DNA from: an uncultured Chlorobiaceae bacterium | GTDB taxonomy: Bacteria; Bacteroidota; Chlorobiia; Chlorobiales; Chlorobiaceae | Direction: 5' to 3' | DNA length: 46,912 bases | NCBI GenBank assembly: GCA_903940125.1 | Contig: CAJAJL010000029.1 | Location: forward strand, 1 to 46,912 | Part shown: positions 9,683 to 46,723 of the stretch, one piece after another | How positions within the stretch are numbered: position 1 is the stretch's first letter | How the letters are laid out: the number at the start of each line of letters is the position of its first letter | The notes under the pieces: model-generated | What the model saw: only the letters and a program-made list of their open reading frames with translations | Database searches by the model: none | Told to the model about the DNA's origin: nothing | Made by a program: the position numbers and the translations under genes

Positions 9683-10315
9683 ATGTCAGAAGATATAAAG
9701 GCGGCCTCTCCATCAAGAGATAAGCCGACAATTGCATACAAAATACGAGACTCCCTTTACCTTAACATCACCAATAGATGTTCAAATACCTGCATTTTCT
9801 GTCCAAAATTTGAAAAGTACAATTTGCAGGGCAATGATTTATTTCTTCAGGTTGAGCCCACATTCGAAGAGGTTATGGCAGCTATTGGCGAGCCGACCGG
9901 AATCGCTGAAATTGTTTTTTGTGGTTTTGGTGAATCGCTTATCCGGCTCGATTTGGTCATCCAGGTAGCACGAGAGATAAAAAGGAACTATGGCTATCCT
10001 ATTCGCATCAATACTGATGGCCAGGCCAACTTGGTTCACGGTCGCAACATCATTCCGGATTTGACCGGTCTTGTGGACACTATTTCTGTGAGCTTAAATG
10101 CTTCTGATGCCGCCTCTTATCTTCAGTTATCCAATACTCCTTTCGGATTGGATGGATTTAGAGGTATTTGTGACTTTATCATTGATGCAAAAAAACAGAT
10201 ACCAATTGTAATTGCAAGTGTTGTGAATGTTCATGGAGTTGATCTTGATGCTTGTCGGAAAATTGCGGAATCACTTGGAGTATTGTTTAAAGTAAGGGAG
10301 TTTAAGGAGAAATAA
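9683..10315 (+). CDS. TatD-associated-type radical SAM protein
   Basis: This 210-residue protein binds a radical-SAM [4Fe-4S] cluster through C33-x3-C37-x2-C40 (NRCSNTCIFCPKF). It also shows FCGFGE (the SAM-binding GGE-like motif), RINTDGQANL, and DTISVSLNASDAASYLQL. Length and these blocks fit the small family described as 'radical SAM protein, TatD family-associated'. Members usually neighbour a tatD gene, and none is visible here. It ends the first importer operon, 30 nt after the HMA-fold gene. Reaction and substrate are unknown; a role in maturing a cofactor or substrate of this system is only an inference. Confidence 0.75.
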   Translation: MSEDIKAASPSRDKPTIAYKIRDSLYLNITNRCSNTCIFCPKFEKYNLQGNDLFLQVEPTFEEVMAAIGEPTGIAEIVFCGFGESLIRLDLVIQVAREIKRNYGYPIRINTDGQANLVHGRNIIPDLTGLVDTISVSLNASDAASYLQLSNTPFGLDGFRGICDFIIDAKKQIPIVIASVVNVHGVDLDACRKIAESLGVLFKVREFKEK

Positions 10316-30975: not shown

Positions 30976-33900
30976 ATGTCTTTCCAGGCCATCCTGACGA
31001 AATACAGAAAAGATTCATTCTCCGAGCGTGATAAAGGTGACCGCTTTGAGCGGTTGATGCAGGCCTATCTGAAAACCGACCCAAAGTATGCCTATCTCTT
31101 CAAAAAGGTGTGGCTGTGGAATGAATTCCCTGGGCGGGGCGATTTTGGTGGTGGTGATACCGGGATAGATTTGATTGCCTTGACCTTGGATGGCAACTAT
31201 TGGGCAATTCAGTGTAAATGTTTTCAGGAAAGTGCTGCCATCGATAAACCGGCTGTTGATTCTTTTCTCTCAACATCAAGCAGGGAGTTCAAGGATGAAA
31301 ACCTGCAGACAACAAGCTTTGCGCAACGGCTCTGGATTTCAACGACCAATAAATGGGGGCTGAATGCAACCGAAGCCATAAAAAATCAGAGCCCGCCTGT
31401 TATCCGGCTCAACCTCTTCGAGCTGCAGGAATCAGCGGTTGATTGGCAGAAATTAGATCAGGGTATACACGGCGAAGCATCACGAACGCCAAAAAAAACA
31501 CTGAGGCCGCATCAGCAGGAGGCCTTGGATAAAACGCATGAGCATTTCAAAACGGCAGACAGGGGTAAGCTCATTATGGCTTGCGGTACTGGGAAAACAT
31601 TCAACTCCCTGCGCATCGCTGAACATGAAACCAATGGCAAGGGCCTTATCCTCTTCCTGGTTCCCTCCATCGCCTTGCTTGGCCAGACACTGCGAGAGTG
31701 GTCGTCCGATGCCAATGAGCCGATTAATGCTGTTTGTATCTGTTCGGACAGTGAGGTGTCGCGAAAAAAAAGCAAGAACGAAGATAGTGACTCATACAGC
31801 ATCGTTGATCTTGCGTTACCTGCATCCACTGATGTCAGCTCAATTCTCCGCCAGTTCAAGCATATAGAGGCCAATGGACACGCTGGCTTGACTGTTGTGT
31901 TTTCTACCTACCAATCCATCGCAGTGATTGCTCGTGCACAAGCTGAACTGCAGAAATCAAACAATAGCTATGGTGAGTTTGATCTCATCATTTGCGATGA
32001 AGCTCACCGAACCACAGGGGTTACCTTATCCGGTGAAGATGAATCTGCATTTACTAAAGTTCACGACAACAATTTCCTCAAAGGGAAAAAGCGGCTCTAT
32101 ATGACCGCAACCCCAAGGCTTTACAGTGACGATACAAAAAGCAAGGCAGCACAAGCCGATGCCATTCTTTGCTCAATGGATGATACCAGGTTATTTGGTG
32201 AGGAAATCTACCGTATTGGTTTTGGTGAGGCAGTAGAAAGGGATCTACTCAGTGATTACAAAGTGCTCATTCTGACGTTGAATGAAAACGATGTTCCGCC
32301 AGCGGTGCAGAAGATGATAACCGATAACGAAAGTGAAATCAACACTGACGATGCCTCCAAACTTATTGGATGTATCAATGCCCTCTCGAAGCAAATCCTT
32401 GGGGATGCTGGTGTTATCAAAGGTAGTGATCCGGAGCCTATGAAACGGGCTGTTGCCTTTTGCCAAAGCATTGCTGTATCAAAAAAAATAACAGCCACCT
32501 ACAACACTGCTTCCGACGCTTACCTCAATTCATTGCCTGAAAAAAGCCAGGAGCGGATGGTTTCGCTCTCTTCGCGGCATATTGACGGCACTATGACGGC
32601 TCCCCAGCGGGATGAATTGCTCTCGTGGCTGAAGGCTGATACCAATTACAATGAGTGCCGTGTGCTTACCAACGTGCGCTGTTTAAGCGAAGGGGTTGAT
32701 GTTCCCTCATTGGATGCTGTTATGTTCCTCTCTGCCCGCAACTCACAGGTCGATGTTGTTCAGTCGGTTGGTCGTGTCATGCGAAAAGCACCGGGTAAAA
32801 AATATGGCTACATCATCATCCCTGTTGTTGTTCCTTCTGATGTCGAGGCTGACAAAGCTCTTGACGATAATGAGCGTTACAAAGTTGTCTGGACAGTATT
32901 GAATGCTCTCCGAGCTCATGACGACCGATTCAATGCCACAGTCAATAAAATAGAACTCAACCGCAAACGTCCTGAACAGATTTTAGTAGGCAGGCCAGCC
33001 TGTTCATGGGAAGATGGGCAGCACATCGTAGCAGACCCTGGCGTTGCGTATGGAACTGATCAGGAGATCAGTCAACAGCTCGCTATGCAATTTGAACAAT
33101 TGCAGCATGTCGTTTTTGCCCGTATGGTGCAGAAGGTTGGTGACCGTCGCTATTGGGAGCAGTGGGCCAACAATGTTGCGGAAATTGCTCAACGGCAGGG
33201 TGAAAGGATCAATCGCCTGATTCAAGCTGATGGAGAGCACAACAAGGCATTTCAGGAGTTTCTCTGCGGTCTGCAGCAGAACATCAACCCATCTATCACC
33301 CGGCAGGAGGCTGTTGAGATGCTCTCGCAGCACATCATTACCAAGCCGGTCTTTGAAGCGCTTTTCAAGGGGTACTCCTTTGTCCAGAACAATCCCATAT
33401 CGGTCTCCATGCAGAAAATGCTCGACCTGCTGGAGGCACAAACCATCCAGGAGGATACCGACACCCTGAACAAATTTTATGAATCGGTCAGAATGCGGGC
33501 GGCTGATATTGACAACGCCGCTGGCAAACAGCGCATTATTATTGAGCTGTATGACAAGTTCTTTAAAACGGCTTTCCCAAAGATGGTGGAAAAGCTCGGC
33601 ATTGTCTATACACCAGTTGAATTGGTTGATTTCATCATCCACTCTGTTAATGATGTACTCAAACAGGAGTTTGACCGCTCCCTTTCCGACGAGAACATCC
33701 ACATCCTCGACCCCTTTACCGGCACTGGCACCTTTATTACTCGCCTCCTGCAAAGTGGTCTGATTGACCGGAAAGACCTCGAACGGAAATACCAGCAGGA
33801 GATTCATGCCAACGAGATTGTGCTGCTTGCCTACTACATCGCAGCGGTCAATATTGAGAACGCCTACCACGATATGATGGGCGACACAACAACCTACAAA

Positions 33901-35853
33901 GCTTTTGAAGGCATCTGCCTGACCGACACCTTTCAGCTTGGTGAGACGGATGAAAGTGCCGTACTCTTTTCTGATATGTTTCCGCAAAACTCTGAACGCG
34001 TATCGGCGCAGAAAAAGACGCCACTGCGAGTGATTATCGGCAATCCGCCCTACTCCGTCGGCCAGAAGTCGGCCAATGACAATGCCCAAAACCAGAGTTA
34101 CCGGAAACTTGATGGCCGGATAGCTGCTACATACGCAAAAGGCAGTATGGCAACATCAATAAAAGCACTTTACGATGCCTATATCAAAGCGTTCCGCTGG
34201 AGTACTGATCGACTTGATCCAGAGCACGGCGGTATCATTGCCTTTGTTTCAAATGCTGCCTGGCTGGATGGAAATGGAATGGATGGTTTGCGTCAATGTC
34301 TGGAAAAGGAGTTTTCAAGCATCTATGTTTTTAATTTGAGGGGCAACCAGCGTACCAGTGGAGAGCTCTCCAGAAAAGAGGGTGGCAAAATATTTGGTTC
34401 CGGTTCCCGTACTCCCATTGCTATTACTTTGCTGGTGAAAAACCCTGACAAGACCGCAGAGAAAGCCACTATCCATTATGTTGATATTGGTGATTACCTG
34501 AATCGGGAAGAGAAGCTCGGTATCATCAGCAACTACCGTTCGGTTAGCAATCCAGCAATGCCCTGGCAAACGTTGGAACCCAATGAGCATGGGGATTGGA
34601 TCAGCCAACGGAATGATCTCTTTGAGACGTTTATTCCTTTGGCAGGAAAGACAAAATTTGATCTCAAATCGCATTCATATTTTTTGACTTATTCACTGGG
34701 AATTGCATCCGGCAGAGATAGTTGGGTTTATAATTTTTCAAGAAAAAAATTGAGAGGAAATGTTTCACAATCAATTGATTTTTATAATGAGCAGTCTCTT
34801 GAATTTAAAAATGCAAGGCAAAAAGACTCCGAATTAGAGGTAGATTCATTTATTGATACTGATCCAAGTAAAATCAGTTGGAACCGGAATCTAAAACAAG
34901 ATATTGATCGTTATAAAGCACATTTATTTGATGTAAATAATATTGTTAAAGCCAATTACAGACCGTTCTGCAAAAATTATTTTTACTTTGATAAAGATTT
35001 CAACGCAATGATTTATCAAAATAAAAAGCTTTTCCCTAATCCGGATTCAATAAATAAGGTCATTTGCGTTTCATCTATTGGCGCAAATAATGGCCTATCT
35101 GTCTTGATAAGTAATTGTATTACCGATTTACATTTCAATGGAGACACACAATCTTTTCCCCTCTACTACTACGAAGAACGCCAGAAATCAAGCCCAACAC
35201 TTTTTGATGCGGCCACCGAGAATGAGTTTATCCGCAGAGATGGCGTTTCAGATTTTATTCTCGAAAGAGCACTGAAGCTGTATGGCAATCGTGTCACCAA
35301 GGAAGATATTTTTTACTACGTCTACGGTATTCTTCACAGCCCTGAATACCGCACCCGTTTTGCCAACGACCTGAAAAAAATGCTCCCACGCATCCCGCTT
35401 GTCGATGAACCCCGGGAATTCTGGTCATTCAGCAAAGGTGGAAGAGAGCTGGCCGAGCTGCATATCAACTATGAAACAGTGCTATCTTATGAAGGTGTAT
35501 CCGTCACCGGTGCTGAGAAAGGGCTCTTCAATGTTGAAAAGATGCGCTTCCCGAAAAAAGGGCAAAAGGATACCATTCTTTATAACGGTTACATCACCAT
35601 ATCGAACATTCCTGACAAGGCCTATGACTACGTTGTGAACGGCAAAAGCGCTATAGAATGGATCATGGAGCGCTATCAGATCACGACCCATAAAGAGAGC
35701 GGGATAACCAATGACCCGAACGACTGGGCCAAAGAGGTTGGTAATCCTCGTTATATTCTTGATCTGCTTCTGAGTGTGATTAATGTGAGTGTGAAGACTG
35801 TGGGGATTGTTGAGGGATTACCGGAGTTGAGGTTTGAAGCCCCCACTGCTTAG
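30976..35853 (+). CDS. Type ISP single-chain restriction-modification enzyme
   Basis: This 1625-residue protein combines all activities of a type ISP (LlaGI/LlaBIII-like) system. There is an Mrr-like PD-(D/E)XK nuclease (GGGDTGIDLIA near 58-68, QCKCF near 79-83), and a superfamily 2 helicase (Walker A ACGTGKT 202-208, DEAH near 340, then SVGRVMRKAPG). A gamma-type N6-adenine methyltransferase follows, with the SAM motif DPFTGTGTF near 912 and NPPY near 1024. A target-recognition region makes up the rest. It would nick or cleave unmodified DNA after translocation and methylate one strand of its site. The recognition sequence cannot be deduced. The stretch about 34660-35150 looks AT-rich against its flanks. 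The start lacks a ribosome-binding site; TATAAT lies at 30953-30958. Confidence 0.92.
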   Translation: MSFQAILTKYRKDSFSERDKGDRFERLMQAYLKTDPKYAYLFKKVWLWNEFPGRGDFGGGDTGIDLIALTLDGNYWAIQCKCFQESAAIDKPAVDSFLSTSSREFKDENLQTTSFAQRLWISTTNKWGLNATEAIKNQSPPVIRLNLFELQESAVDWQKLDQGIHGEASRTPKKTLRPHQQEALDKTHEHFKTADRGKLIMACGTGKTFNSLRIAEHETNGKGLILFLVPSIALLGQTLREWSSDANEPINAVCICSDSEVSRKKSKNEDSDSYSIVDLALPASTDVSSILRQFKHIEANGHAGLTVVFSTYQSIAVIARAQAELQKSNNSYGEFDLIICDEAHRTTGVTLSGEDESAFTKVHDNNFLKGKKRLYMTATPRLYSDDTKSKAAQADAILCSMDDTRLFGEEIYRIGFGEAVERDLLSDYKVLILTLNENDVPPAVQKMITDNESEINTDDASKLIGCINALSKQILGDAGVIKGSDPEPMKRAVAFCQSIAVSKKITATYNTASDAYLNSLPEKSQERMVSLSSRHIDGTMTAPQRDELLSWLKADTNYNECRVLTNVRCLSEGVDVPSLDAVMFLSARNSQVDVVQSVGRVMRKAPGKKYGYIIIPVVVPSDVEADKALDDNERYKVVWTVLNALRAHDDRFNATVNKIELNRKRPEQILVGRPACSWEDGQHIVADPGVAYGTDQEISQQLAMQFEQLQHVVFARMVQKVGDRRYWEQWANNVAEIAQRQGERINRLIQADGEHNKAFQEFLCGLQQNINPSITRQEAVEMLSQHIITKPVFEALFKGYSFVQNNPISVSMQKMLDLLEAQTIQEDTDTLNKFYESVRMRAADIDNAAGKQRIIIELYDKFFKTAFPKMVEKLGIVYTPVELVDFIIHSVNDVLKQEFDRSLSDENIHILDPFTGTGTFITRLLQSGLIDRKDLERKYQQEIHANEIVLLAYYIAAVNIENAYHDMMGDTTTYKAFEGICLTDTFQLGETDESAVLFSDMFPQNSERVSAQKKTPLRVIIGNPPYSVGQKSANDNAQNQSYRKLDGRIAATYAKGSMATSIKALYDAYIKAFRWSTDRLDPEHGGIIAFVSNAAWLDGNGMDGLRQCLEKEFSSIYVFNLRGNQRTSGELSRKEGGKIFGSGSRTPIAITLLVKNPDKTAEKATIHYVDIGDYLNREEKLGIISNYRSVSNPAMPWQTLEPNEHGDWISQRNDLFETFIPLAGKTKFDLKSHSYFLTYSLGIASGRDSWVYNFSRKKLRGNVSQSIDFYNEQSLEFKNARQKDSELEVDSFIDTDPSKISWNRNLKQDIDRYKAHLFDVNNIVKANYRPFCKNYFYFDKDFNAMIYQNKKLFPNPDSINKVICVSSIGANNGLSVLISNCITDLHFNGDTQSFPLYYYEERQKSSPTLFDAATENEFIRRDGVSDFILERALKLYGNRVTKEDIFYYVYGILHSPEYRTRFANDLKKMLPRIPLVDEPREFWSFSKGGRELAELHINYETVLSYEGVSVTGAEKGLFNVEKMRFPKKGQKDTILYNGYITISNIPDKAYDYVVNGKSAIEWIMERYQITTHKESGITNDPNDWAKEVGNPRYILDLLLSVINVSVKTVGIVEGLPELRFEAPTA

Positions 35854-35856
35854 CGT

Positions 35857-35898
35857 TTCAAAGGATTGGCAATTTAGGTTTATGCTCTATTCTTTTTC
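35857..35898. repeat. 42-bp imperfect direct repeat, copy B (exporter gene-end remnant)
   Basis: It reads FKGLAI-stop in frame, like the end of the exporter gene at 29636, plus the downstream 21 nt. It sits 3 nt after the restriction gene's stop codon. It is probably the end of a diverged copy of that exporter gene left after insertion or recombination. Confidence 0.7.
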
Positions 35899-35926
35899 AT
35901 CAACCACCGATTAAACCCTTGAATTC

Positions 35927-36340
35927 ATGTGGTGGACTTACGCGTTACTATCTGCTCTGTTTGCTGCCTTTACTGCCATACTTGCCAAAATCGGCATAAA
36001 AGGTGTTAACTCCGATCTGGCAACTGCCATACGAACGGTATTTATTTTATGTATTGCATGGGGGATTGTCTTTGCCCGCAAAGAGGTAGATGGCATCCAT
36101 CTCCTTTCAAAAAATAACTGGGTGTTTCTTGGTCTCTCAGGTGTTGCAACCGGTTTATCCTGGATATGCTATTTTAAAGCGTTGCAGATGGGAAAGGTTT
36201 CACAGGTTGCCCCTGTCGATAAAATGAGTGTTGCCATAGCAATAATTTTATCAGCTTTGTTCCTTCATGAGGTTCTGACATGGAAAATCTTGATGGGAGC
36301 ACTTCTTATTATTGGAGGTTCTGTGCTGATTATTTTGTAG
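35927..36340 (+). CDS. Single-domain EamA-type small transporter
   Basis: This 137-residue, very hydrophobic protein has about five membrane segments. It is one EamA (drug/metabolite transporter) domain: YALLSALFAAFTAILAKIGI at the start, GVATGLSWICYFKALQMG in the middle, then APVDKMSVAIAIILSALFLHE and a final GGSVLIIL helix. Usual DMT transporters have two such domains. One-domain members of this length exist and work as dimers, so I consider this complete rather than truncated. Substrate unknown. Confidence 0.8.
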   Translation: MWWTYALLSALFAAFTAILAKIGIKGVNSDLATAIRTVFILCIAWGIVFARKEVDGIHLLSKNNWVFLGLSGVATGLSWICYFKALQMGKVSQVAPVDKMSVAIAIILSALFLHEVLTWKILMGALLIIGGSVLIIL

Positions 36341-36345
36341 TGGAT

Positions 36346-36532
36346 ATGATGATCTCCTTCGGAGGCCTCAAAGTCGCTCAGGAACCAGTGAAAAAAAAGC
36401 TTTATCCTGCCAAAAGAGATTGCTGATGCTTTTGATATTTATGTAAAACTTGTACAAAGGGAATTTCCCGGAGTAACCGAGACAGAAGTTGCAACAGCTG
36501 AACATTATTGTTCAATTTTCTCGGAATTCTGA
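36346..36532 (+). pseudogene. Small unknown gene broken by a one-base frameshift
   Basis: From ATG 36346 the frame reads MMISFGGLKVAQEPVKKK and stops after LYPAKRDC. In the +1 frame the sequence continues EIADAFDIYVKLVQREF and on to CSIFSEF-stop. Removing one A from the AAAA run near 36412-36415 joins both into a coherent protein of about 60 residues. The 3' end overlaps the convergent Fic gene. I do not recognise the family. Either a true frameshift or a sequencing error is possible. Confidence 0.4.
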
Positions 36533-37584
36533 ATCGACCCCAGTTCGTACCAGACGCCACGTCCACTGCCATGTTGAGTCAGATGGCCACGTTGAACCAG
36601 GTTTCGGAAGTGAACTTTCAAGGTGTTGCGGCTGATGCCAGTCAGCTTGATAGCATTGCCTATCGTTATGCGTCCATGTTCACGGACAAATTCAACGATA
36701 TGCAGTGAGATTTCTGGCAAAGAAGTCATGACGATCTTCTCTCGCTCTACTTTCTTCTCAAGGCGGCGGACCTGATCGGCCAGCGAACGAAGAAAAAACA
36801 CCAGCCACGGCTGCCAGTTTGGGGTATCAGTCCGGATTAAACCCTGAGTTTGCCGTAGAGCCAGGTAGTAGGCTTCTTTGTTGAGTTCGATGACGCTTTC
36901 CAGTGAACTGTATGGTACGTAAGCGTACCCCGACTGAAGTAACAGTAAGGTGGTTAAGACACGACTGAGCCGACCATTTCCATCCTTGAACGGGTGGATT
37001 TCGAGAAAGACCACCACAAAAAGAGCGATGATTAAAAGCGGGTGCAGTGTTTTTTGCTCACGTTCATCTTTTACCCAGGTAACCAGTTCGGCCATCAGGT
37101 GAGGGGTATTGAAGGGAGTTGCGGTTTCGAACACGATACCGATCTGATTGCCGTTTTCATCAAAAGCTGCAACACTGTTTGAGTTGGTTTTGTACTGTCC
37201 TCTGTGTCGAGAATCCTTATCGATATGGCGCAGGAGAATCTGATGTAACTGTTTGATGTGGTTCTCGTTGAAAGGGATGTTTGGCCACGATTCGAACACC
37301 AGGTCCATCAGCTCCGCATAACCTGCAACTTCCTGTTCATCACGTGTTTCGAAAGACTGAATAACCAGGTTGGAAAGGAGACGCTCAACCTCTCGATCGG
37401 ACAGTTTACTTCCCTCAATGCGGGTTGATGATCCGATGCTCTCGATGGTGGCAACCCTGCGTAAGGCTGAAAGACGATCAGGGGCAAGAGTGCCCAGAGT
37501 ACGCCAGACGCCTTTGAATTCATCGATCTGAGCAATCAGGCTCAGAATCTCCGGAGTGATATGAATCGTATCAGTTCGTAACAT
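36505..37584 (-). CDS. Fic-family protein (AMPylase-type) with C-terminal winged helix
   Basis: The Fic core motif HPFKDGNGR lies near residues 197-205, the active-site loop that transfers AMP or another nucleotide-type group to a protein target. A class II-type inhibitory motif SSTRIEG stands in the N-terminal helix, about 140 residues before it, so activity is probably autoinhibited. The C-terminus (HGRITIGNAIKLTGISRNTL, then LVQRGHLTQHGSGRG) is a winged helix-turn-helix. The frame can begin at a GTG (37599), but the ATG at 37584 (MLRTDTIHITPE) is more likely: 359 residues. Convergent to the EamA gene. Target unknown; such proteins often lie in mobile or defence regions. Confidence 0.88.
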   Translation of the reverse strand: MLRTDTIHITPEILSLIAQIDEFKGVWRTLGTLAPDRLSALRRVATIESIGSSTRIEGSKLSDREVERLLSNLVIQSFETRDEQEVAGYAELMDLVFESWPNIPFNENHIKQLHQILLRHIDKDSRHRGQYKTNSNSVAAFDENGNQIGIVFETATPFNTPHLMAELVTWVKDEREQKTLHPLLIIALFVVVFLEIHPFKDGNGRLSRVLTTLLLLQSGYAYVPYSSLESVIELNKEAYYLALRQTQGLIRTDTPNWQPWLVFFLRSLADQVRRLEKKVEREKIVMTSLPEISLHIVEFVREHGRITIGNAIKLTGISRNTLKVHFRNLVQRGHLTQHGSGRGVWYELGSIQNSEKIEQ

Positions 37585-37590
37585 AAACCA

Positions 37591-37619
37591 ATTATACACC
37601 CATTTACACCCAATTACAA
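37591..37619 (-). promoter_or_regulatory. Promoter of the Fic gene
   Basis: On the minus strand TTGTAA (37619-37614), a 17-nt spacer and TATAAT (37596-37591). The ATG at 37584 is only 6 nt after the -10, so the transcript would be leaderless, in line with the missing ribosome-binding site. Confidence 0.5.
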
Positions 37620-38251: not shown

Positions 38252-38292
38252 TGAAAGATGTTTAACGTTCTTAAACAAAAAGGAGGTAAACG

Positions 38293-38481
38293 ATGCGGAG
38301 TGCGAAGGTAATTGAAAATGAGCATCCCGACACTGAGCGCGAAGAGGTGATCGAGAAGCTGGAAGTTAGCAATGAGCCCGGTGCTCGTGTTCTAGCTCGC
38401 ATAATCCGTCAGGCCGATGCAGAAGACGCAGAAGCCGTGATGTGGTCTCAGAATTGGAACGCTCATAGCCGTAGCTCATAG
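38293..38481 (+). CDS. Candidate RiPP precursor peptide
   Basis: This 62-residue peptide has an excellent ribosome-binding site (AAGGAGGT, 7 nt before ATG) and its own promoter. The first ~48 residues are charged and probably helical, rich in E, A and R (for example HPDTEREEVIEKLEV and ARVLARIIRQADAEDAEA), as expected of a leader. The last residues, MWSQNWNAHSRSS, switch abruptly to W, N, S and H and would be the core. It precedes two radical SAM/SPASM maturase genes by 194 nt. No Cys is present, so a thioether bond from Cys is excluded; the two Trp are obvious targets. The family is not recognised and the precursor role is inferred from size, composition and context. Confidence 0.65.
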   Translation: MRSAKVIENEHPDTEREEVIEKLEVSNEPGARVLARIIRQADAEDAEAVMWSQNWNAHSRSS

Positions 38482-38675
38482 AGCTATGGTTTGAATAAAA
38501 CGCCATGAGATCATTACTCTGTTAGGGTGTGAGCAAGTATGCCCCGTCAAAAGCTATAAATATTCTGCAAATAGCCACAAGCTACTTTTCTCCGTGATTC
38601 GTATAAAGGCCTATTTGTCGCACAATTCATTCTGCTCTTGAATGTTACTTTGTTCCAAATCAAGAATTTGGGGGC

Positions 38676-39839
38676 ATGCTAGTAAAACCATCAGTCAAAA
38701 ATTTGCTATGTAGCACTATAACAGTTGTGGTTAGAATTTCTTCTCGCTGCAATTTGACGTGCGACTATTGTTACGCAAAAGCTTCGAATAGACCAGAAAG
38801 TGCATCATCGTTTATGACGATAGAAACTGCCTCAATCGTCTGTGAGCAGTTTCTATCGCTTCCCGTCAAGCGTGTAGATTTCAATTGGCATGGCGGGGAA
38901 CCGTTGCTTTCTGACCCTGCTGTGTTACGGAATGCCATACAAACACAACAACGGCTTTTGACGGAAGGTAGTGCTCCAGCAATAAACAAGATACAGACGA
39001 ATGGAACGCACTTCTCAGATGAATGGCTCACTCTACTCTGCGAATATCCCATTGATATAGGTATCAGCCTAGATGGCCCTGCCCGCTTCCATAATCGGCA
39101 TCGTTCGGTTACTGATGAAAGACCAACATCATGCCACGATGAAGTTATGGCAAACATGGCTAAATTGCGAAAAATCGGATTGCCGTTTGGTACACTTCTC
39201 GTAATCACAGAGGATATGGCTTTCGCGGCGAAGGAGATTTTTGATTTTGTCAATGATGAGCAGCTCTCGGTTGATCTTCTTCCTTGCTTCTTCCATGGTA
39301 CTTTGGGTAATGTAGTCCCTCCAAGCATTCATCCTCATTCGCTTTCGCGATTTATGCAGGAATATTTCGATGAGTGGATTCGCCATCCTGATCCGCCAAC
39401 TTGTCGGATCCTTGAAGACATGTTAGGAGGTGTACTTGGTATTAAACCTAGAACATGTGCGTTTCGTAATCATTGCCATGAGTTCTATAGCGTAGATACT
39501 GATGGTCGCCTTTATCCCTGTGACTTGTTCTTGGGTCAACAAGATATGTGCTTGGGTAATTTGCATTCGGAATCCTTGCACTCAATCCTTAGTTCACCTC
39601 ACACTGCGGCAATTCGTTCTAGTATTGCCACTCTGCCTGATGATTGCAATGAATGTGACTGGCTTTTCGCGTGTGGAGGAGGATGCTCAGCACATCGGAT
39701 TGGTCAGACCCTCGACTCAGTTGGGCGATATTATTTCTGTGGGGCACGAAAATCCATTTTCAAACATATTGAGGCGTTTATGCTATCCAATGCCAGCCTA
39801 TTTTCGACTGCTAAGGCAGCAATGAGGGGAATGCTATGA
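38676..39839 (+). CDS. Radical SAM/SPASM peptide maturase 1
   Basis: This 387-residue protein has the radical SAM cluster motif C25-x3-C29-x2-C32 (SRCNLTCDYCYAK), then WHGGEPLL, KIQTNGTHF and GISLDGPARFH, all typical of the sulfatase-maturase/peptide-maturase clade. The SPASM region near the C-terminus holds CAFRNHCHEFYSVDTDGRLYPCD, CNECDWLFACGGGCS and YYFCGARK, enough cysteines for auxiliary Fe-S clusters. Family members modify a peptide or protein by radical chemistry. GGGGG lies before the ATG. The stop overlaps the second maturase as ATGA. The substrate is presumably the 38293 peptide. Confidence 0.9.
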   Translation: MLVKPSVKNLLCSTITVVVRISSRCNLTCDYCYAKASNRPESASSFMTIETASIVCEQFLSLPVKRVDFNWHGGEPLLSDPAVLRNAIQTQQRLLTEGSAPAINKIQTNGTHFSDEWLTLLCEYPIDIGISLDGPARFHNRHRSVTDERPTSCHDEVMANMAKLRKIGLPFGTLLVITEDMAFAAKEIFDFVNDEQLSVDLLPCFFHGTLGNVVPPSIHPHSLSRFMQEYFDEWIRHPDPPTCRILEDMLGGVLGIKPRTCAFRNHCHEFYSVDTDGRLYPCDLFLGQQDMCLGNLHSESLHSILSSPHTAAIRSSIATLPDDCNECDWLFACGGGCSAHRIGQTLDSVGRYYFCGARKSIFKHIEAFMLSNASLFSTAKAAMRGML

Positions 39840-40972
39840 GTGCGGATCTGCCAACCACAATAGTCATTAAAACAACAGACTCATGCAATTCCGCCTGTCA
39901 CTACTGTTACGAAGAGAACGCTGTTGATGGAACCGTGCGCACGATACCCTTGGACGTGGTAGAAGAAATCTATCGTTGGGCTGCCGAGTCGGGGCTAGCC
40001 AAAGTCCAACTGGTTTGGCATGGTGGCGAACCGCTACTAGCTGGAATTTGTTTTTTCCAAGAGATCTTTTCAATTCAGGCGAAGTACGAAAGGGCAGGAC
40101 TGGAATACATTCATAGTCTTCAGACGAACGGGATATTGGTAGACGACGATTGGATTAAGTTATTTCGATCCTATCGGATAGGAGTTGGGATTAGTCTAGA
40201 TGGCCCAGCTTGGCTACACGATTTTCAGCGACCGCTTTCGACGGGATGTCCCAGTCATTCAAGAGTGATAAGTGCTCTCGACCGCATGACGGCCGCTGGA
40301 CTACGTGTGAGCCTTTCGGCTGTAGTCACTCAAAAGAGCCTCGGAGCGGAACGCGAAATTATCTCTTTTTTTTCTGCACTTCCTGCGGAATCTGTAGATT
40401 TCCTTCCTATGACGGTTCTGGCATCGAAGCTCCAAGATCACTCCTTCCTCATTAGCGCCATCGAGTTTAGTCAGTTCATGTGTGAAATCTATAAAGAGTG
40501 GTCACGGCTTGACGAAGAACGCATCTCAATCCGATACTTGGAAAACATGATTCGAGGAATAACTGGCTGTCACCCCTCGCTCTGCACCTTTTCGGGCCGA
40601 TGTGGAGCTTACATTTCTATTGACTTTGATGGTAGCCTATATCCGTGTGACTCGTTCATGCGTGCACAAGAATTTAGAATGGGAAATTTACGCGACAAAA
40701 CACTCAATACATTACTTTCCACGAGTCGGTACCATACTTTTCGAGCTGACATCGCCCAACTTCCGCATACCTGTGAGAATTGTGAGATACTTCAAGCCTG
40801 CAACGGTGGGTGCCCATCTGAACGCTACTCAGGTGACGGTAAGTATATGCGTCTTTATCCATTCTGCGGAACTCGCAGGGACCTTGCAAGGCTAATCGCA
40901 GCCGATTTAAATGCCGCTGGAGCGAGCGAATTGTTGCGTCTTCCAAGGGCTATTCAGACGGAGTACCCGTAA
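39836..40972 (+). CDS. Radical SAM/SPASM peptide maturase 2
   Basis: This 378-residue paralogue of the preceding protein has C17-x3-C21-x2-C24 (DSCNSACHYCYEEN), LVWHGGEPLLAG, LQTNGILVD, GISLDGPAWLHD, and SPASM cysteines in CTFSGRCGAYISIDFDGSLYPCD, CENCEILQACNGGCPS and PFCGTRRD. The two differ along their length, so two distinct modifications, or a heterodimer, are possible. Its stop overlaps the next start by one base (TAATG). Confidence 0.9.
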   Translation: MSADLPTTIVIKTTDSCNSACHYCYEENAVDGTVRTIPLDVVEEIYRWAAESGLAKVQLVWHGGEPLLAGICFFQEIFSIQAKYERAGLEYIHSLQTNGILVDDDWIKLFRSYRIGVGISLDGPAWLHDFQRPLSTGCPSHSRVISALDRMTAAGLRVSLSAVVTQKSLGAEREIISFFSALPAESVDFLPMTVLASKLQDHSFLISAIEFSQFMCEIYKEWSRLDEERISIRYLENMIRGITGCHPSLCTFSGRCGAYISIDFDGSLYPCDSFMRAQEFRMGNLRDKTLNTLLSTSRYHTFRADIAQLPHTCENCEILQACNGGCPSERYSGDGKYMRLYPFCGTRRDLARLIAADLNAAGASELLRLPRAIQTEYP

Positions 40973-43062
40973 TGAGCAACACCGTTCATGATTCGAAACA
41001 GCAGGATTTCACCGAATGGCACGGACATTTGGTCGCCTTATGTTGCTCAGAAGAATCCGAACTTCCTGTTTTGACTAAATTCCATAACGGGCTCCATGCC
41101 TGCCCCGAAGGGTGTTGCCGAATCGTCGAAACTGAGTCAGGGAGACCGTATCTGATCTGTATAACTGGCCATGGCATGGTAGCTGCCGCTGCCTCCGCAG
41201 CACACCTGTTTGACGCACACAAGGTTGGTCTGTTGGTGGCACTAGGCTTCATGGGGCGGATCTGCGCTTCGATTTCAAGAGAAGACGTCATTCTCGTCTC
41301 AAAGACTGCCAACTATGCTTCGATAAGTGCAATAATCCGACCGGAGGAAATCGACGCAGATCATGTACGCTCATGGACCCCACTCGAGGAAATCAAGCAG
41401 CTCGCCTATTCCTCGGCTCAAGATTGCCAGTTTGTACTCAAAGAAGGGACTGTTATAAGCGCTGAGGGTCCACTTCATGATGGAGATGTTAGTCGCCAGC
41501 TTTCCCGGCAGTTTTCAGCTGTCGGTGTGGACATGGAGACGGCGGCAATCGCGCAGGTTGCAGAACTTCGAAACCGAGCATGGCTCTCCTTTCGCATGAC
41601 GAGCGATGATGCTGATCAGCAGGCTGCTAAAGACTATAAAGCAGCATGCGAGCACGGTGTTTCCCCAGCCCTTGGAAAGGTTGTCGAGACGCTCGTAGAT
41701 CGACTTGCAGCACATCGTGTTGGCCCGGCAAGCATATTCAGGGTTGATGCGAGCATCAATAGAGAGACTGAGAAGAAAATTCTCAGTGCTGATCGGGAAA
41801 CTGTGTTTCATCCATTCTCGAGTCCCAACCATGACGATTCTTGCATACCACGAGTTGTGTCACGTGCATTTGGAGTTCGAATGTGGGATGAGCTTGGTCG
41901 ATGTTACTTTGACGGGATTGCAGGGACAAAGAACGTTTGTCTTGGACATGGACATCCTGCGGTTTTCCCGTTCCTTATCGAACAAAATAGCCGCCTTGCC
42001 CACTGGCCAGCCGATGGTTTTACTAACAAAGTCCTTGTTTCGTTTTCAGAAAAGCTCGCAAGGTTGTTTCCTGGCACTCTTCGCCACGTGTTTGCCAATA
42101 GTAGCGGCTCCGAAGCAGTCGAAACGGCTTTACGATTGTCAAGAGATTACCATCGTTGTCGAGGTGAGGGACACAGGTATCGGGTATTGGCACTTACGGG
42201 AGGTTATCACGGGGCTACCGCTGGCGCTCTTTCGATTACTGGACACGCAGCGAGTCGTTATGGGGCTGGACCTTTGATGGAAGGCGTAATTTTCATCGAA
42301 CCTCCTGCAAATGGGGAGCCTTCAGCAGTTGAAGAGGCACTTGTTCGCCTCGAAAATGCTCTTGAGCTATCGGACCCGGAGAGTTTTGCAAGTTTTATAT
42401 TCGAACCGACTCAAGGTCTCGGGGGGGTGCGACCGCTACCAACACGTTTTCTACAAGGCCTTCTCCAGACGGCAAGGGATATTGGCGCTTTGGCAATTGC
42501 CGATGAGGTAGCCTCTGGTTTAGGTAGGACAGGCCTCTGGTTTGACTTTTTGCGTGTACAGCAAGAACCGGATATTGTAGTGTGCGGAAAAGCTCTAACC
42601 AATGGAACCATTCCATTGTCAGCGACTGTTGCAAGTGATCGTATTTTCGACGTGATCACTGCTCGATTCTCGTCACTTCGTCATGGTCATACTTTCTCAG
42701 GCCACCCTTTAGCTGCGGCAGCTGCTTGTCGCGTTCTTGATACACTTTCTGATATTGATGTGCTATCGCGTGTCAACGCGAGAGTAACAGAGTTTCAATC
42801 TCACAATGCAAAGGAACTTCGACAATTGCCGCACGTAGCTGATATACGAAATGCAGGGCTGTGGATTGGCATCGAACTTCGCTCCCTTGGTTACGGTGAA
42901 CCTCCTCCTGTTCGGCGCTTCTCGCGAGCGCTCACACAGAATGGGCTGATCCACGAAGTCCTTGGAGCAACGATCGCACTCAGCCCATCGCTCACGATCT
43001 GTAAAGAGGATTGGGAAGCAATTGGTGCGATTCTTGTGCAAACATTTCAGGAGGAATCATGA
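40972..43062 (+). CDS. Pfs-like MTA/SAH nucleosidase fused to class III aminotransferase
   Basis: This 696-residue protein joins two enzymes. Residues about 15-245 resemble 5'-methylthioadenosine/S-adenosylhomocysteine nucleosidase (Pfs/MTAN): ITGHGMVAAAASAAHLF, then VGVDMETAAIAQVAE and MTSDDADQQ, matching the substrate-binding VEMEATAIA and catalytic SDVADQQ blocks of the E. coli enzyme. Residues about 270-690 are a PLP class III aminotransferase: GIAGTKNVCLGHGHP, FANSSGSEAVETAL, GGYHGATAGAL, FIFEPTQG, ADEVASGLGRTG and the PLP lysine K540 in CGKALTNG. Radical SAM enzymes release 5'-deoxyadenosine, which MTAN enzymes can cleave. BioA-type aminotransferases use SAM as amino donor. Which of these applies is unknown. 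Confidence 0.85.
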   Translation: MSNTVHDSKQQDFTEWHGHLVALCCSEESELPVLTKFHNGLHACPEGCCRIVETESGRPYLICITGHGMVAAAASAAHLFDAHKVGLLVALGFMGRICASISREDVILVSKTANYASISAIIRPEEIDADHVRSWTPLEEIKQLAYSSAQDCQFVLKEGTVISAEGPLHDGDVSRQLSRQFSAVGVDMETAAIAQVAELRNRAWLSFRMTSDDADQQAAKDYKAACEHGVSPALGKVVETLVDRLAAHRVGPASIFRVDASINRETEKKILSADRETVFHPFSSPNHDDSCIPRVVSRAFGVRMWDELGRCYFDGIAGTKNVCLGHGHPAVFPFLIEQNSRLAHWPADGFTNKVLVSFSEKLARLFPGTLRHVFANSSGSEAVETALRLSRDYHRCRGEGHRYRVLALTGGYHGATAGALSITGHAASRYGAGPLMEGVIFIEPPANGEPSAVEEALVRLENALELSDPESFASFIFEPTQGLGGVRPLPTRFLQGLLQTARDIGALAIADEVASGLGRTGLWFDFLRVQQEPDIVVCGKALTNGTIPLSATVASDRIFDVITARFSSLRHGHTFSGHPLAAAAACRVLDTLSDIDVLSRVNARVTEFQSHNAKELRQLPHVADIRNAGLWIGIELRSLGYGEPPPVRRFSRALTQNGLIHEVLGATIALSPSLTICKEDWEAIGAILVQTFQEES

Positions 43063-43682
43063 CATCCGCAAGTGCCTCAGCATCACATATCGAAAAGCCT
43101 TTGCTTGAAATGGGGGGGGTTCGTCTCCGTGCTGTTCACGATGCTGATTTACCTTTTCTGTTCGAGCTTAGTACGTCTTTTGAGACTCTCCACCTGTGGG
43201 ATGACGGACAAATCGAAACTGTAGAAAGACGATTTGTCGAGGTGTTTCTACAAAAGGCCAACTCACGAACTTTTTTCATTGTGGAATCAATTTTTCAGAA
43301 CGAAAGTTCATTCGAGCCGATCGGGCTTGCATATTTTTATAGCTTAGACCCAATTAATGAATGGGCTTATTATACTATTGCATTACACCCGAGATATGTC
43401 ATGCGTGGAGCAGGCTATGTTGCCAGCCTGCTCGCACTGGAGTGGGCATTCTATTCATGGAGTCTACACAAGCTCTATGTAGAAATTTTATCTGACAATA
43501 GTGTCGCGATTAATACTGCTATCCGCCTTGGATTCGAAAGAGAAGCTCACTTCACGCAGCACCGACGTATTGCTGCTGAGCGCTTCGATGTTGATGTTCT
43601 CGCCCTGAGTCGCCAGCGCTGGGTATCTGAGTTTCGAAGCAGAGCCATAGAAAGGGCTAAAAAACTGAATGTACGTTCATGA
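43059..43682 (+). CDS. GNAT-family N-acetyltransferase
   Basis: About 207 residues. The frame opens at 43011, but AGGAGG 5 nt before the ATG at 43059, and ATGA overlap with the preceding stop, fix the start. The sequence is that of a RimJ/RimL-like GNAT: VRLRAVHDADLPFLFEL, then EPIGLAYFYSLD, YYTIALHPRYVMRGAGYVASLLAL (acetyl-CoA-binding beta-4/helix region), LHKLYVEILSDNSVAINTAIRLGFERE. It would acylate an amine, perhaps one introduced by the aminotransferase, or the peptide N-terminus; this is inference from position. Overlaps the next gene as ATGA. Confidence 0.85.
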   Translation: MTSASASASHIEKPLLEMGGVRLRAVHDADLPFLFELSTSFETLHLWDDGQIETVERRFVEVFLQKANSRTFFIVESIFQNESSFEPIGLAYFYSLDPINEWAYYTIALHPRYVMRGAGYVASLLALEWAFYSWSLHKLYVEILSDNSVAINTAIRLGFEREAHFTQHRRIAAERFDVDVLALSRQRWVSEFRSRAIERAKKLNVRS

Positions 43683-46600
43683 CTACCCGTACTTCAGAAA
43701 TATTGCTAATCTTCCCGCCACATTGGGCATTCACCATGCCGCATCTTGCGTTGCCTTGCTTGCATGGCGCTCTTGCCGCAGCAGGCCACGGCGCAACACT
43801 TATGGATATCAATTTGGATTTCCATCGATGGCTTTTCTCCTCCGATGGAATTGGCGCACTTGGTTCGCGAATTCGGAGCCGAATCGATTGCCTCGAAGCG
43901 AAGTCCACAATCAGCTCAATTGAGGCAACCATTCTTCGAAAACTGATTGTAGGGGATGCTATTGCCCAGCGACTTCAGACGGAAATCGACAGTGCGGTCG
44001 ATGTACTAACTTCTGAAAAGTTTTATAACCCACATCTCCTCACGAAGGCGACCGATAGCCTTGCGGCAACATATAGTCTCGTTGGAAGCGCGTTCTTTCC
44101 TTCACGCATGGACTTTATATCTTTCCATCCAAAGGTGAATCCGGCAACTCAAGAGGGTCTTGCCGAAATCACACAGGATGATGTGACAAATCCATACAGG
44201 TACTTTTTCTCCCGTTGCACAATCCCCACGATCCGTGATCTCAACCCTCGCCTAATCGGTATTTCGATCTCAGCAGAAACTCAGTGGGTTGCTGCTCTTA
44301 CACTGTGCCGCATGCTCCGCGAATCAGGCAACACCGCATTATTAGCACTCGGTGGCGGTGTACCAACTAGAATCAAAGACGTACTCGCCACAACTGATGG
44401 ATCACTCCAAGATTATTGCGACATCATTGTAACCGGCGAGGGCGAGGAAACAATTGTAGAGCTGGCAAACTGTATTTTGCAGGGTAAACCATTTGATGAC
44501 ATTGCTGGATCTATCGCGTACCTTAAAGACGGGACGATTCGAAAAAACCAAGCCCGTAGTCACATTCCTTTTGGACAGCTTCCTACCCCAATTTATACGG
44601 GATTGTGCCTATCGCGCTACATTACCCCAAAACCAGTCCTCCCTTTGATGCTTGCAAGGGGATGCTTTCATCGGTGCGCCTTTTGTGATCACAGTGCTGC
44701 CTATTCTGTTAGCAGGTCAGCTCGAACTCTCGCTGAGCTTGTTGCGGAAATGAATATGTTGCAGCAGCAACATGGTACGACTTGCTTCGCTTTTGCGGAT
44801 GAATCACTTCCCGTTGATGCAATTCGCGGGATCGCAGCAAAGTTAGAATACCGAGCAGAAAAACTTTCTATTGCAGCGAACTTCCGTGGAGAGGCCAACT
44901 TCAACGCTGAGGACTGGAAGGTATTTGCTCGCACCGGGCTTCGACTCGCGCAGTTTGGGATTGAATCAGGAAGTCAAAGGGTCCTCAATGCAATGCACAA
45001 AGGAACCGTTGTAGAGGTAGTTGAGGCTTCATTACGCCAAGCTAGCTATACTGGTATATGGAATCATGGGTTCATAATGTTTGGCTTCCCTTGTGAGACG
45101 CAGGAGGATGTCGCACAAACAATCGAGTTATTGGAACGAAACAGGGAGTGCATTCACTCAGTTGGCGCTTCGCAGTTCCACCTGATGCGTAACTCTGCGA
45201 TTGCAAACAGCCCAGAGGTCTTCGGTGTAACATTGGGTGACGCTGGCGTTTGGTCCCTAGTTCTTCCACACAATCCTGGCGATGGAATGACGGTTGCTGA
45301 AACTGAAACTGTTTGCACTTCATTCAACAGTAAGACTGTTCCGTGCCTTCCGGGTGCAGCTCTTTGGCAGCGTCTCGAACGCGCTCAGCTTTTGCTCTAC
45401 CTTGAGCGGTATTCTCGGGAAACGATGCTTGCTCTTGGAGATGATTTGGATACCCTTAGCGCTGAGGCTACGTCGTTACTGCCTAGGTTGCCAATTGATG
45501 TGGAGTTGGCGCGCTTGACTCATGATGTTACGGACACGCAAGGAGAGGTCTCGCGATCAGGTTCCCCATTGTCTCTACTTGTCGATGGTCTATCCCGAAG
45601 CGTATCGCTACTTTCGGATGAGGCATGGATTGCAGTCAAGGCCTGGCGAAAAGGCAGTTCTGTTGAAACTGCTTCTCATAATCTAGCGTCAGAATTGGGT
45701 ATTGATCACGTTGCTCCTGTAAAAGAAATTGAAGCGCTATGGTTGGACCTTCACCTTGCAGAACCAACCCTCATGAATGAGGAGCCCCTGTTCGAGGAGA
45801 CATCATTTCTGGACCTTCGAACAGCTATTGATGCACCGAAATGTCTTCCTAACAGTGCACTTCCAGAGTGGCTTGGCATCGTGACCGGAATCAAACCTGG
45901 AATGCGAATTACGCTTTACGGATGGACGCGGATACAGCTCGAAGTATTTGCTAAAACTATTTTGCGCAGAGGACTTGCTGTCCAGTTTGGAGAATTCCGG
46001 TCGGACGGTTTAGCTCACTTATCTCAGCATGAGAGATCTCTCGCTCTTGCTGCATCCCCAGTTTACGCCTACATTGCTCGAACGGTCGTACTTGCTGATA
46101 TGCTTGCAAAAGCTGAGAGTCAGGGTGGTACCGCCTTCGGAAGAGCACTTGGGTATCCTGATTGCTGCGTGCAATGGCTTGCCAGGCAGGATGCGAAAAG
46201 GAGCCAAGGAAGTCGCCCTCCTAATCTACCGGTCATAGGTCTCCAGAACACGAATAGTCAATGTTGCGCTGAGCTAAACAACCTGCTCTGGCACCTTCCC
46301 GATAGACCGTCGCCATTTTATCTTATTTCGCACTACCCATGTTCCTATAGTTGCCAACACTCCGCTACGCTGGCGCGTACCCTTCATAAAGAAATTGAGC
46401 TTAGATCTGCTGATGCTGCCCACAGCATGATCCGAGCTTTATCACGGCCAGTTGTAATCTGGGATGACACTTTGCTCCCGCAAACATGCTGGGATGAGAA
46501 CAAGGGTCTTGTGTTTAACGGAAGCGTTGTTTTGAATAGCATACATTTTAGTGCATACATGTCCCTACGGAAAGAAAGGGACTACTCCGACCTTGGGCTG

Positions 46601-46723
46601 GCATTCTCAGACGAGCTGGTGATGAACGAGGATCGCGTTTTGGGTATGCGCGAAGGGCAGCTAGCTGGTTGCTGGTGGGCAGCCGATCATGGTAAGGCTC
46701 ATATCTTTGACTTCCGATGGTAG
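43679..46723 (+). CDS. B12-binding-type radical SAM protein with Cys-rich C-terminal domain
   Basis: This 1014-residue protein starts like cobalamin-binding radical SAM proteins (ILLIFPPHWAFTMPHLALPCLHGAL), with a Rossmann-like part ending LLALGGGVPTR and VTGEGEETIVELA. The radical SAM cluster motif is C329-x3-C333-x2-C336 (ARGCFHRCAFCDHSA), followed by FADESLP and QFGIESGSQRVLNAMHKG. No clear DxHxxG cobalamin ligand is seen, so B12 binding is uncertain. Residues about 790-930 contain LGYPDCCVQW (C829, C830), SQCCAEL and HYPCSYSCQ (C888, C892), resembling the DUF483-type cysteine-rich domain. About 200 residues between are unassigned. The last gene of the overlapping cluster; probable substrate the peptide or a small metabolite. 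Confidence 0.8.
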   Translation: MTTRTSEILLIFPPHWAFTMPHLALPCLHGALAAAGHGATLMDINLDFHRWLFSSDGIGALGSRIRSRIDCLEAKSTISSIEATILRKLIVGDAIAQRLQTEIDSAVDVLTSEKFYNPHLLTKATDSLAATYSLVGSAFFPSRMDFISFHPKVNPATQEGLAEITQDDVTNPYRYFFSRCTIPTIRDLNPRLIGISISAETQWVAALTLCRMLRESGNTALLALGGGVPTRIKDVLATTDGSLQDYCDIIVTGEGEETIVELANCILQGKPFDDIAGSIAYLKDGTIRKNQARSHIPFGQLPTPIYTGLCLSRYITPKPVLPLMLARGCFHRCAFCDHSAAYSVSRSARTLAELVAEMNMLQQQHGTTCFAFADESLPVDAIRGIAAKLEYRAEKLSIAANFRGEANFNAEDWKVFARTGLRLAQFGIESGSQRVLNAMHKGTVVEVVEASLRQASYTGIWNHGFIMFGFPCETQEDVAQTIELLERNRECIHSVGASQFHLMRNSAIANSPEVFGVTLGDAGVWSLVLPHNPGDGMTVAETETVCTSFNSKTVPCLPGAALWQRLERAQLLLYLERYSRETMLALGDDLDTLSAEATSLLPRLPIDVELARLTHDVTDTQGEVSRSGSPLSLLVDGLSRSVSLLSDEAWIAVKAWRKGSSVETASHNLASELGIDHVAPVKEIEALWLDLHLAEPTLMNEEPLFEETSFLDLRTAIDAPKCLPNSALPEWLGIVTGIKPGMRITLYGWTRIQLEVFAKTILRRGLAVQFGEFRSDGLAHLSQHERSLALAASPVYAYIARTVVLADMLAKAESQGGTAFGRALGYPDCCVQWLARQDAKRSQGSRPPNLPVIGLQNTNSQCCAELNNLLWHLPDRPSPFYLISHYPCSYSCQHSATLARTLHKEIELRSADAAHSMIRALSRPVVIWDDTLLPQTCWDENKGLVFNGSVVLNSIHFSAYMSLRKERDYSDLGLAFSDELVMNEDRVLGMREGQLAGCWWAADHGKAHIFDFRW

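Follow-up and report, generated by a model that had tools for sequence, protein, structure and literature searches.

Operon Organization and the Precursor Peptide

What is made by three radical S-adenosylmethionine (SAM) enzymes, a nucleosidase fused to an aminotransferase and an acetyltransferase, all encoded directly behind the gene of a small peptide? The question is raised by contig CAJAJL010000029.1 of an uncultured Chlorobiaceae bacterium (assembly GCA_903940125.1), analyzed here over its whole length of 46912 bases (the window). The contig belongs to a single genome of 3.0 Mb, 98.6% complete and distributed over 129 contigs, which encodes the FMO protein (PF02327, E 9e-227), absent from 14 of 14 control genomes; the host is therefore a green sulfur bacterium. 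The locus is a real and unusual operon of the type responsible for ribosomally synthesized and post-translationally modified peptides (RiPPs), distinct from the known families tested. We give a probability of about 0.6 to its being an orphan RiPP biosynthetic operon with the stepwise route proposed below.

Open reading frame (ORF) calling showed the presence of six ORFs, a precursor gene and five modifying genes, at the coordinates given in an earlier annotation made from the DNA letters (hereafter, the sequence-only reading), which had also correctly described the 62-residue peptide and overlaps of 1–4 nt between the modifying genes; the consecutive overlaps are 4, 1, 4 and 4 nt. The precursor gene (38293..38481, + strand) encodes a putative RiPP precursor of 62 aa with a charged leader and the tail MWSQNWNAHSRSS, and the first maturase gene, SPASM1, starts 194 nt downstream of it. 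The ribosome-binding region (38277..38292, + strand) contains AAGGAGG; only 3 starts with such a spaced site are present on both strands of the 46.9 kb, the precursor start being one of them. The codon score of the precursor, 0.174, is higher than those of all 41 antisense ORFs of 50–80 aa in the cluster (maximum 0.115). No family match was found for the peptide in Pfam and NCBIfam, and no homologues in plasmids, phages and IMG/VR. The tail contains the motifs WSQ (residues 51–53), WNA (55–57) and HSR (58–60). As is general for RiPPs, a precursor with an encoded leader and core adjoins the modifying enzymes, with the leader/core boundary at a presumed position.

The strong small ORF, the tight cassette of maturase-like radical SAM enzymes and the aromatic-x-x motifs of the tail make a RiPP-type cluster, as proposed by the sequence-only reading, the best reading of the locus. 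We infer that the 62-aa peptide is the substrate of the operon’s enzymes.

Radical SAM/SPASM Maturases

Two genes, 38676..39839 and 39836..40972 (both + strand), each encode a protein with Radical_SAM and SPASM domains (Pfam): maturase 1 of 387 aa, with the motifs CNLTCDYCYA and WHGGEP, and maturase 2 (SPASM2) of 378 aa, with CNSACHYCYE and WHGGEP. The CxxxCxxC motif and all eight SPASM cysteines are intact in both proteins, which are 32% identical to each other. The top NCBIfam family of both is the anaerobic sulfatase-maturating enzyme (anSME) family TIGR03942, with 225.1 and 255.5 bits against a cut-off of 349.45, and the second-best is DynA, with 194 and 202 bits (cut-off 450); YhhB, DarW, FxsB and GrrM are also among the best models. 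Since the best models are anSME, DynA, YhhB, FxsB and GrrM, both maturases are placed in the anSME/cyclophane branch. Models of the YhhB, FxsB and GrrM type gave at most 160 bits (cut-offs 310–450), and with all NCBIfam scores below the cut-offs neither protein is a member of the known families of three-residue-cyclophane-forming enzymes (XyeB, GrrM/OscB, YhhB, FxsB). For the SynChlorMet cassette, with its ScmA precursor and ScmE/ScmF enzymes, membership was rejected: the precursor has no NCBIfam match, and no Scm model is present among the 25 top-scoring models of maturase 1 or of maturase 2.

The closest solved structure for both maturases is anSME 4k37, and the Asp of the PCD motif is retained. 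A Tyr after CxxxCxxC and a Gln before GGEP are active-site residues of anSMEs. The Tyr, two residues past the last Cys of CxxxCxxC, is present in 83 of the 94 compared sequences, as in anSME; the same position is occupied by Ala in maturase 1, Glu in maturase 2, Asp in a paralogue encoded on contig C18 of the same genome, and Glu or Ala in related phage enzymes. The Gln is replaced by His in both maturases of the window, the His alone being undiagnostic, as it also occurs in 28 Tyr-bearing relatives. Lacking the Tyr/Gln pair and scoring below the cut-off, the maturases are thus not canonical sulfatase maturases.

Enzymes forming three-residue cyclophanes join Trp, Phe, Tyr or His to the residue at position i+2; His is joined to Arg by YhhB (His-x-Arg) and to Ala by HaaB (His-x-Ala), and Trp-x-Asn, Trp-x-Arg and Trp-x-Asp linkages are also known (PMC11002830). 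The aromatic-x-X3 pattern of triceptides is found in the core of the precursor in WSQ, WNA and HSR, the last of which is the His-x-Arg form. As judged from these motifs and the family scores, formation of cyclophanes on the tail by the two maturases is the favored reading, but an unproven one.

Nucleosidase–Aminotransferase Fusion and Acetyltransferase

The third modifying gene (40972..43062, + strand) encodes a fused protein of 696 aa, in which Pfam recognizes a PNP_UDP_1 nucleosidase domain (residues ~49–241, 2e-23) and a class III aminotransferase domain dependent on pyridoxal 5'-phosphate (PLP) (residues ~289–690, Aminotran_3, 1e-78). The nucleosidase domain scores highest with methylthioadenosine/S-adenosylhomocysteine (MTA/SAH) nucleosidase (66.7 bits), followed by HpnG (38.5) and futalosine hydrolase (32.8), all below the cut-offs. 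The HpnG score, 38.5 against 187.1 for TIGR03468, places the domain outside that family, which concerns membership and not chemical logic. The Glu of VDME and the Asp of TSDDAD, which correspond to the catalytic residues of MTA/SAH nucleosidases (MTAN), are retained. Another PNP_UDP_1 gene was found elsewhere in the host genome, so the fused nucleosidase need not be a housekeeping enzyme.

The aminotransferase domain keeps the PLP Lys (GKALTNG) and the Asp (IADEVASG). BioA, which uses SAM as amino donor, is its nearest model, and membership was rejected at 276 bits against a cut-off of 405; the Trp-Trp pair and Arg391 of BioA seem not to be kept. The score with the daptide aminotransferase model NF041821 is likewise below the cut-off (218.3 against 450).

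The fourth gene (43059..43682, + strand) encodes a GNAT N-acetyltransferase of 207 aa (GNAT, 2e-9), for which SpeG and PseH are the nearest models, below the cut-off; the ATG at 43059, with an AGGAGG site, was preferred as its start over a longer listed TTG ORF from 43011. Where an amine is made and then acetylated, an aminotransferase is usually followed by a GNAT: PseH, for instance, acetylates the amine made by the aminotransferase in its pathway (PseC/PseH logic).

In the hopanoid pathway, HpnH adds a 5'-deoxyadenosyl radical, HpnG removes adenine and HpnO aminates ribosylhopane (PMC12583986), and N-acetyl-aminobacteriohopanetriol exists (PMC9228677). Because the same classes of activity act in the same order on the hopanoid side chain, our general reading of the fusion and the GNAT, favored by analogy, is that an aldehyde on the peptide would be converted to an amine and then to an acetamide. 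In daptides, a RiPP aminotransferase can aminate a peptide carbonyl (PMC11002830).

B12-Binding Radical SAM Protein and the DUF483-like Domain

The last gene of the operon (43679..46723, + strand) encodes a B12-binding radical SAM protein of 1014 aa, with B12-binding (5e-7, slightly below the Pfam cut-off) and Radical_SAM (9e-13) domains and the CxxxCxxC motif at C329/C333/C336. Pfam thereby confirmed all enzyme classes named by the sequence-only reading: two SPASM maturases, a third radical SAM enzyme, an aminotransferase fusion and an acetyltransferase. The best family of the B12 protein is TIGR03975 (B12 radical SAM RiPP C-methyltransferase), of which it is not a member at 120.9 against a cut-off of 281.85. 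A PqqD-like or RiPP recognition element (RRE)-like reading of residues ~605–695, made from the letters, had no Pfam match and is not claimed.

The C-terminal ~290 residues (45839..46720, + strand) are similar to the DUF483-like region of a phage protein (25% over 198 aa, E 2e-9) and to that of a protein encoded on contig C18. The PF04467 (DUF483) score is 13.7 against a gathering threshold of 25, and that of the protein from phage contig L043 (IMGVR_UViG_3300021962_000091) is 24.8 against 25. The motifs GYPxCC (~825–830 in the window protein) and HxPCSxxC (885–892) are kept in all four aligned sequences, namely, the window, L043, C18 and L135 (IMGVR_UViG_3300035670_000038) proteins, and the domain is named DUF483-like because these motifs are shared despite the sub-threshold score. 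That the four cysteines conserved in the domain bind a metal is conjecture.

Contig C18 (6.1 kb; L142:81-5766) contains genes for a B12 radical SAM protein, a SPASM enzyme 28% identical to SPASM2, a standalone DUF483-like protein, a protein without known function and a further radical SAM enzyme; the contig begins 80 nt before the first gene, so any precursor would fall outside it. Phage contigs L043 and L047 (IMGVR_UViG_3300005805_007021) pair SPASM with DUF483. A radical SAM–DUF483 module was reported in Thermus phages in 2024, with fusions of DUF483 to radical SAM or methyltransferase domains and a suggested role in DNA modification (PMC11437467). Taken together, the C18 locus, the phage contigs and this report indicate that the DUF483-like domain seems to accompany radical SAM enzymes repeatedly. 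Apart from the host’s own genome, no match to the DUF483-like half was found in 60 relatives, nor in 143 genomes of another phylum.

In L043 (6732-16574) and L047, two radical SAM proteins with PHGDHTD repeats in their own C-termini were found together with a DUF483–methyltransferase protein, and in long neighboring proteins H-x-D (HTD, HSD, HND) is repeated dozens of times. As His-x-Asp is similar to motifs of the cyclophane type, a virion or tail protein of the phage may be decorated by these radical SAM enzymes. In L135 (6572-8498), the DUF483-like protein adjoins a protein resembling the DUF483 neighbor in L043 (12734-13819), with a common motif xREHELWT; no radical SAM gene is present among the nearby ORFs displayed. 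Chlorobial contigs L028, L029, L030 and L031 encode stand-alone B12 radical SAM proteins (~570–600 aa), relatives of the window protein’s N-terminal half; they are flanked by unrelated genes, and no SPASM gene was seen alongside.

Distribution of Homologous Clusters

Searches of 394 genomes of the phylum were made with the fusion, the B12 protein and SPASM2, and 36 genomes of the same genus were searched; the fusion was also queried in two further phyla, in 198 genomes from that of a Desulfobulbaceae locus and 249 from that of a Burkholderiales locus. The analysis also covered plasmids, phages and IMG/VR and included a single GTDB-wide scan, so that absence is sampled and not exhaustive.

In the 394 genomes, the fusion had no match under 1e-65 besides itself, SPASM2 matched SPASM1 and anSME-like proteins at 29–32% only, and four relatives of the B12 protein, at ~29% identity, matched its N-terminal half only. 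Overall, relatives are generic: SPASM matches at 27–34% without the remaining genes and B12 radical SAM N-terminal halves at 27–29%. A fusion of a nucleosidase with a class III aminotransferase was not seen in the ~840 other genomes queried. Two apparent matches to the fusion were rejected, one (G418, a 711-aa open frame) being an unfused BioA in a biotin operon and the other (G763) an unfused omega-aminotransferase beside an aldehyde dehydrogenase.

The GTDB-wide scan with both SPASM enzymes returned generic sulfatase-maturase-like proteins among the matches listed, none of whose loci encodes other cluster proteins, bar one distant GNAT; the scan patterns are shared with sulfatase maturases, which makes this weak evidence of absence. 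None of the sampled genomes thus contained a homologue of the gene set, the fusion or the precursor, and the open-licence literature searched yielded no paper on such a peptide pathway.

Comparison with Known Systems

The statement of the sequence-only reading that no pathway with this gene set has been described is consistent with our searches of the literature and of protein families. Its comparison with darobactin is weak. Like the darobactin and dynobactin enzymes DarE and DynA, the window encodes SPASM enzymes beside a Cys-free, Trp-containing core, and DynA is the second-best family; however, the core sequence differs, the maturases do not reach the cut-offs of DarE (650), DarW or DynA and stay far below them, and the tail motifs fit three-residue cyclophanes better than WNWSKSF. 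To our knowledge, an aminotransferase, a nucleosidase, a GNAT and a B12 radical SAM enzyme are not part of the darobactin and dynobactin pathways.

Triceptide systems (XncB/XyeB, OscB/GrrM, YhhB, HaaB, FxsB) resemble the operon in that a small precursor with aromatic-x-x motifs adjoins SPASM enzymes and HSR of the tail has the crosslink form of YhhB. They differ from the window in its two low-scoring SPASM enzymes and in the additional B12 radical SAM/DUF483 protein, nucleosidase–aminotransferase and GNAT. Daptide clusters (MpaB/C/D/M) share an aminotransferase of a RiPP class aminating a peptide carbonyl, whereas the window has no recognized oxidative-decarboxylation partners, its core does not end in Thr, and a fused nucleosidase and a GNAT stand where daptides have a methyltransferase.

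The hopanoid system HpnH-HpnG-HpnO resembles the operon in combining a radical SAM enzyme, an adenine-removing PNP_UDP_1 enzyme and an aminotransferase in the same order of chemistry, but its substrate is a lipid and not a peptide, the window enzymes are fused and no HpnH-type radical SAM enzyme is present, so the likeness is one of logic and not of membership. In the phage modules (Thermus phages Cumys/phiMa; L043 and L047, with two radical SAM enzymes each), the DUF483-like domain also adjoins radical SAM enzymes; unlike in the window, DUF483 is not fused to a B12 radical SAM protein (in L043 it is fused to a methyltransferase), long HxD-repeat proteins take the place of a short precursor, and no aminotransferase or GNAT was seen.

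Proposed Pathway

We infer the chemical steps and their order as follows. After translation of the 62-aa precursor, the two SPASM enzymes would modify the aromatic tail, most likely by short-range C–C crosslinks (cyclophanes) at W51-S-Q53, W55-N-A57 and/or H58-S-R60. The B12-dependent radical SAM protein would then add a further radical modification, for example, C-methylation or another C–C bond. The fusion and then the GNAT would convert a peptide carbonyl to an amine and the amine to an acetamide, and an unseen protease and exporter would complete the product. Genes for an exporter, protease or immunity protein are indeed not visible in the window, as the sequence-only reading stated, but the contig stops 189 nt past the end of the B12 radical SAM gene, which makes their absence uninformative.

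Several results weigh against this pathway. Both SPASM proteins are well below the cut-off of every known family, and PMC11002830 lists neither a Trp-x-Gln nor a Trp-x-Ala linkage. No recognized RRE was found in the operon, and no homologous cluster or precursor in the genomes sampled. AlphaFold models of the C-terminal half of the B12 protein and of the fusion had a mean pLDDT of 34 and were unusable.

Alternative Explanations

The likelihoods given to the alternatives are judgements and need not sum to one, those for the fusion being partly sub-cases of the proposed pathway.

A serious alternative, and the most probable of the four though still less likely than not, is that the nucleosidase serves only for clean-up, relieving product inhibition by the 5'-deoxyadenosine, MTA or SAH formed by the three radical SAM enzymes; the fused activities would not be sequential on the peptide, and the substrate of the aminotransferase would be either the peptide, modified independently, or a small molecule. 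The nucleosidase is indeed closest to MTA/SAH nucleosidases, and the nearest model of the aminotransferase, BioA, uses SAM, so MTA-like waste is conceivable, although the presumed BioA residues seem to be missing. Radical SAM enzymes are inhibited by 5'-deoxyadenosine (PMC8102628). On the other hand, enzyme fusions often mark linked steps, a further PNP_UDP_1 gene is present in the host, and the second SPASM/B12/DUF483 locus, on the incomplete contig C18, shows no such nucleosidase.

Somewhat less probable is a specific form of the amine-forming step, in which a radical SAM enzyme would attach 5'-deoxyadenosyl to an unsaturated side chain (the indole of Trp or the imidazole of His), the nucleosidase would strip adenine to leave a 5-deoxyribosyl group, a masked aldehyde, the aminotransferase would turn this into an aminopentitol and the GNAT would acetylate it. 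The fusion unites the two enzyme classes acting consecutively on adenosylhopane (HpnG and HpnO), HpnG is among the matches of the nucleosidase domain, its MTAN-type catalytic Glu and Asp are retained, with a separate PNP_UDP_1 gene in the host the fused copy may be free of a housekeeping role, and an N-acetylated hopanoid is known. Against it, MTA/SAH nucleosidase outscores HpnG, no HpnH/MqnE-type enzyme is encoded in the operon, and no peptide adenosylation of such a kind was found in the papers searched.

It is less probable again that the locus is not a RiPP cluster and that its radical SAM enzymes act on another protein or a cofactor, the 62-aa ORF encoding an unrelated small protein. SPASM enzymes also mature sulfatases and amine dehydrogenases, and no homologous precursor or cluster confirms the linkage; the perfect ribosome-binding site and strong coding score of the ORF, its location immediately ahead of the operon, and its charged leader followed by an aromatic, Asn- and Ser-rich tail argue for a RiPP.

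Least probable is oxidation of a tail Ser (HSRSS) to formylglycine by an anSME-like SPASM enzyme, followed by amination to 2,3-diaminopropionate and acetylation by the GNAT, with the nucleosidase only clearing 5'-deoxyadenosine and SAH: anSME is the top family (225 and 255 bits) and, as 4k37, the top structure match, the PCD Asp is retained and daptide aminotransferases aminate a peptide carbonyl, but the anSME-typical Tyr and Gln are absent, the scores are below the cut-off (349) and no sulfatase motif (C/S-x-P-x-R) occurs in the tail.

Genomic Surroundings

Upstream of the operon (30976-37599) are genes for a 1625-aa protein of the restriction-modification/helicase type, a short EamA-family protein and a Fic-domain protein, a defence-like neighborhood not obviously part of the operon. 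A short radical SAM protein of the TatD-nuclease-associated family TIGR04038 (258 bits, cut-off 130) is encoded at 9683-10315. The region 1154-24784 contains what we take to be nitrate/taurine-type ABC transporters, alternating with several 2-hydroxyacyl-CoA-dehydratase-like genes and BadF-like activators; these transporter and dehydratase-like genes form at least two near-duplicate sets. Base composition bears no mark of a foreign origin of the operon, and the Rfam search gave no match.

Significance

The nucleosidase–aminotransferase–GNAT set beside three radical SAM enzymes is more surprising than the Trp-rich tail, and the identity of the fused nucleosidase and the DUF483-like domain, both absent from the sequence-only reading, are the more unusual parts of the operon. 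The latter adds a bacterial case to the association of DUF483 with radical SAM enzymes reported for phages. Provided that the enzymes act on the peptide, the operon represents a RiPP pathway outside the families of NCBIfam release 20, with a possible new way of decorating peptides, and the question arises of whether amines on ribosomal peptides are built with sugar carbon from S-adenosylmethionine. Should the adenosyl-to-aminopentitol route be true, a hopanoid-like side-chain pathway would have been moved onto a ribosomal peptide, giving an N-acetylated aminopentitol derived from S-adenosylmethionine. The operon thus provides a candidate for a peptide natural product from green sulfur bacteria.

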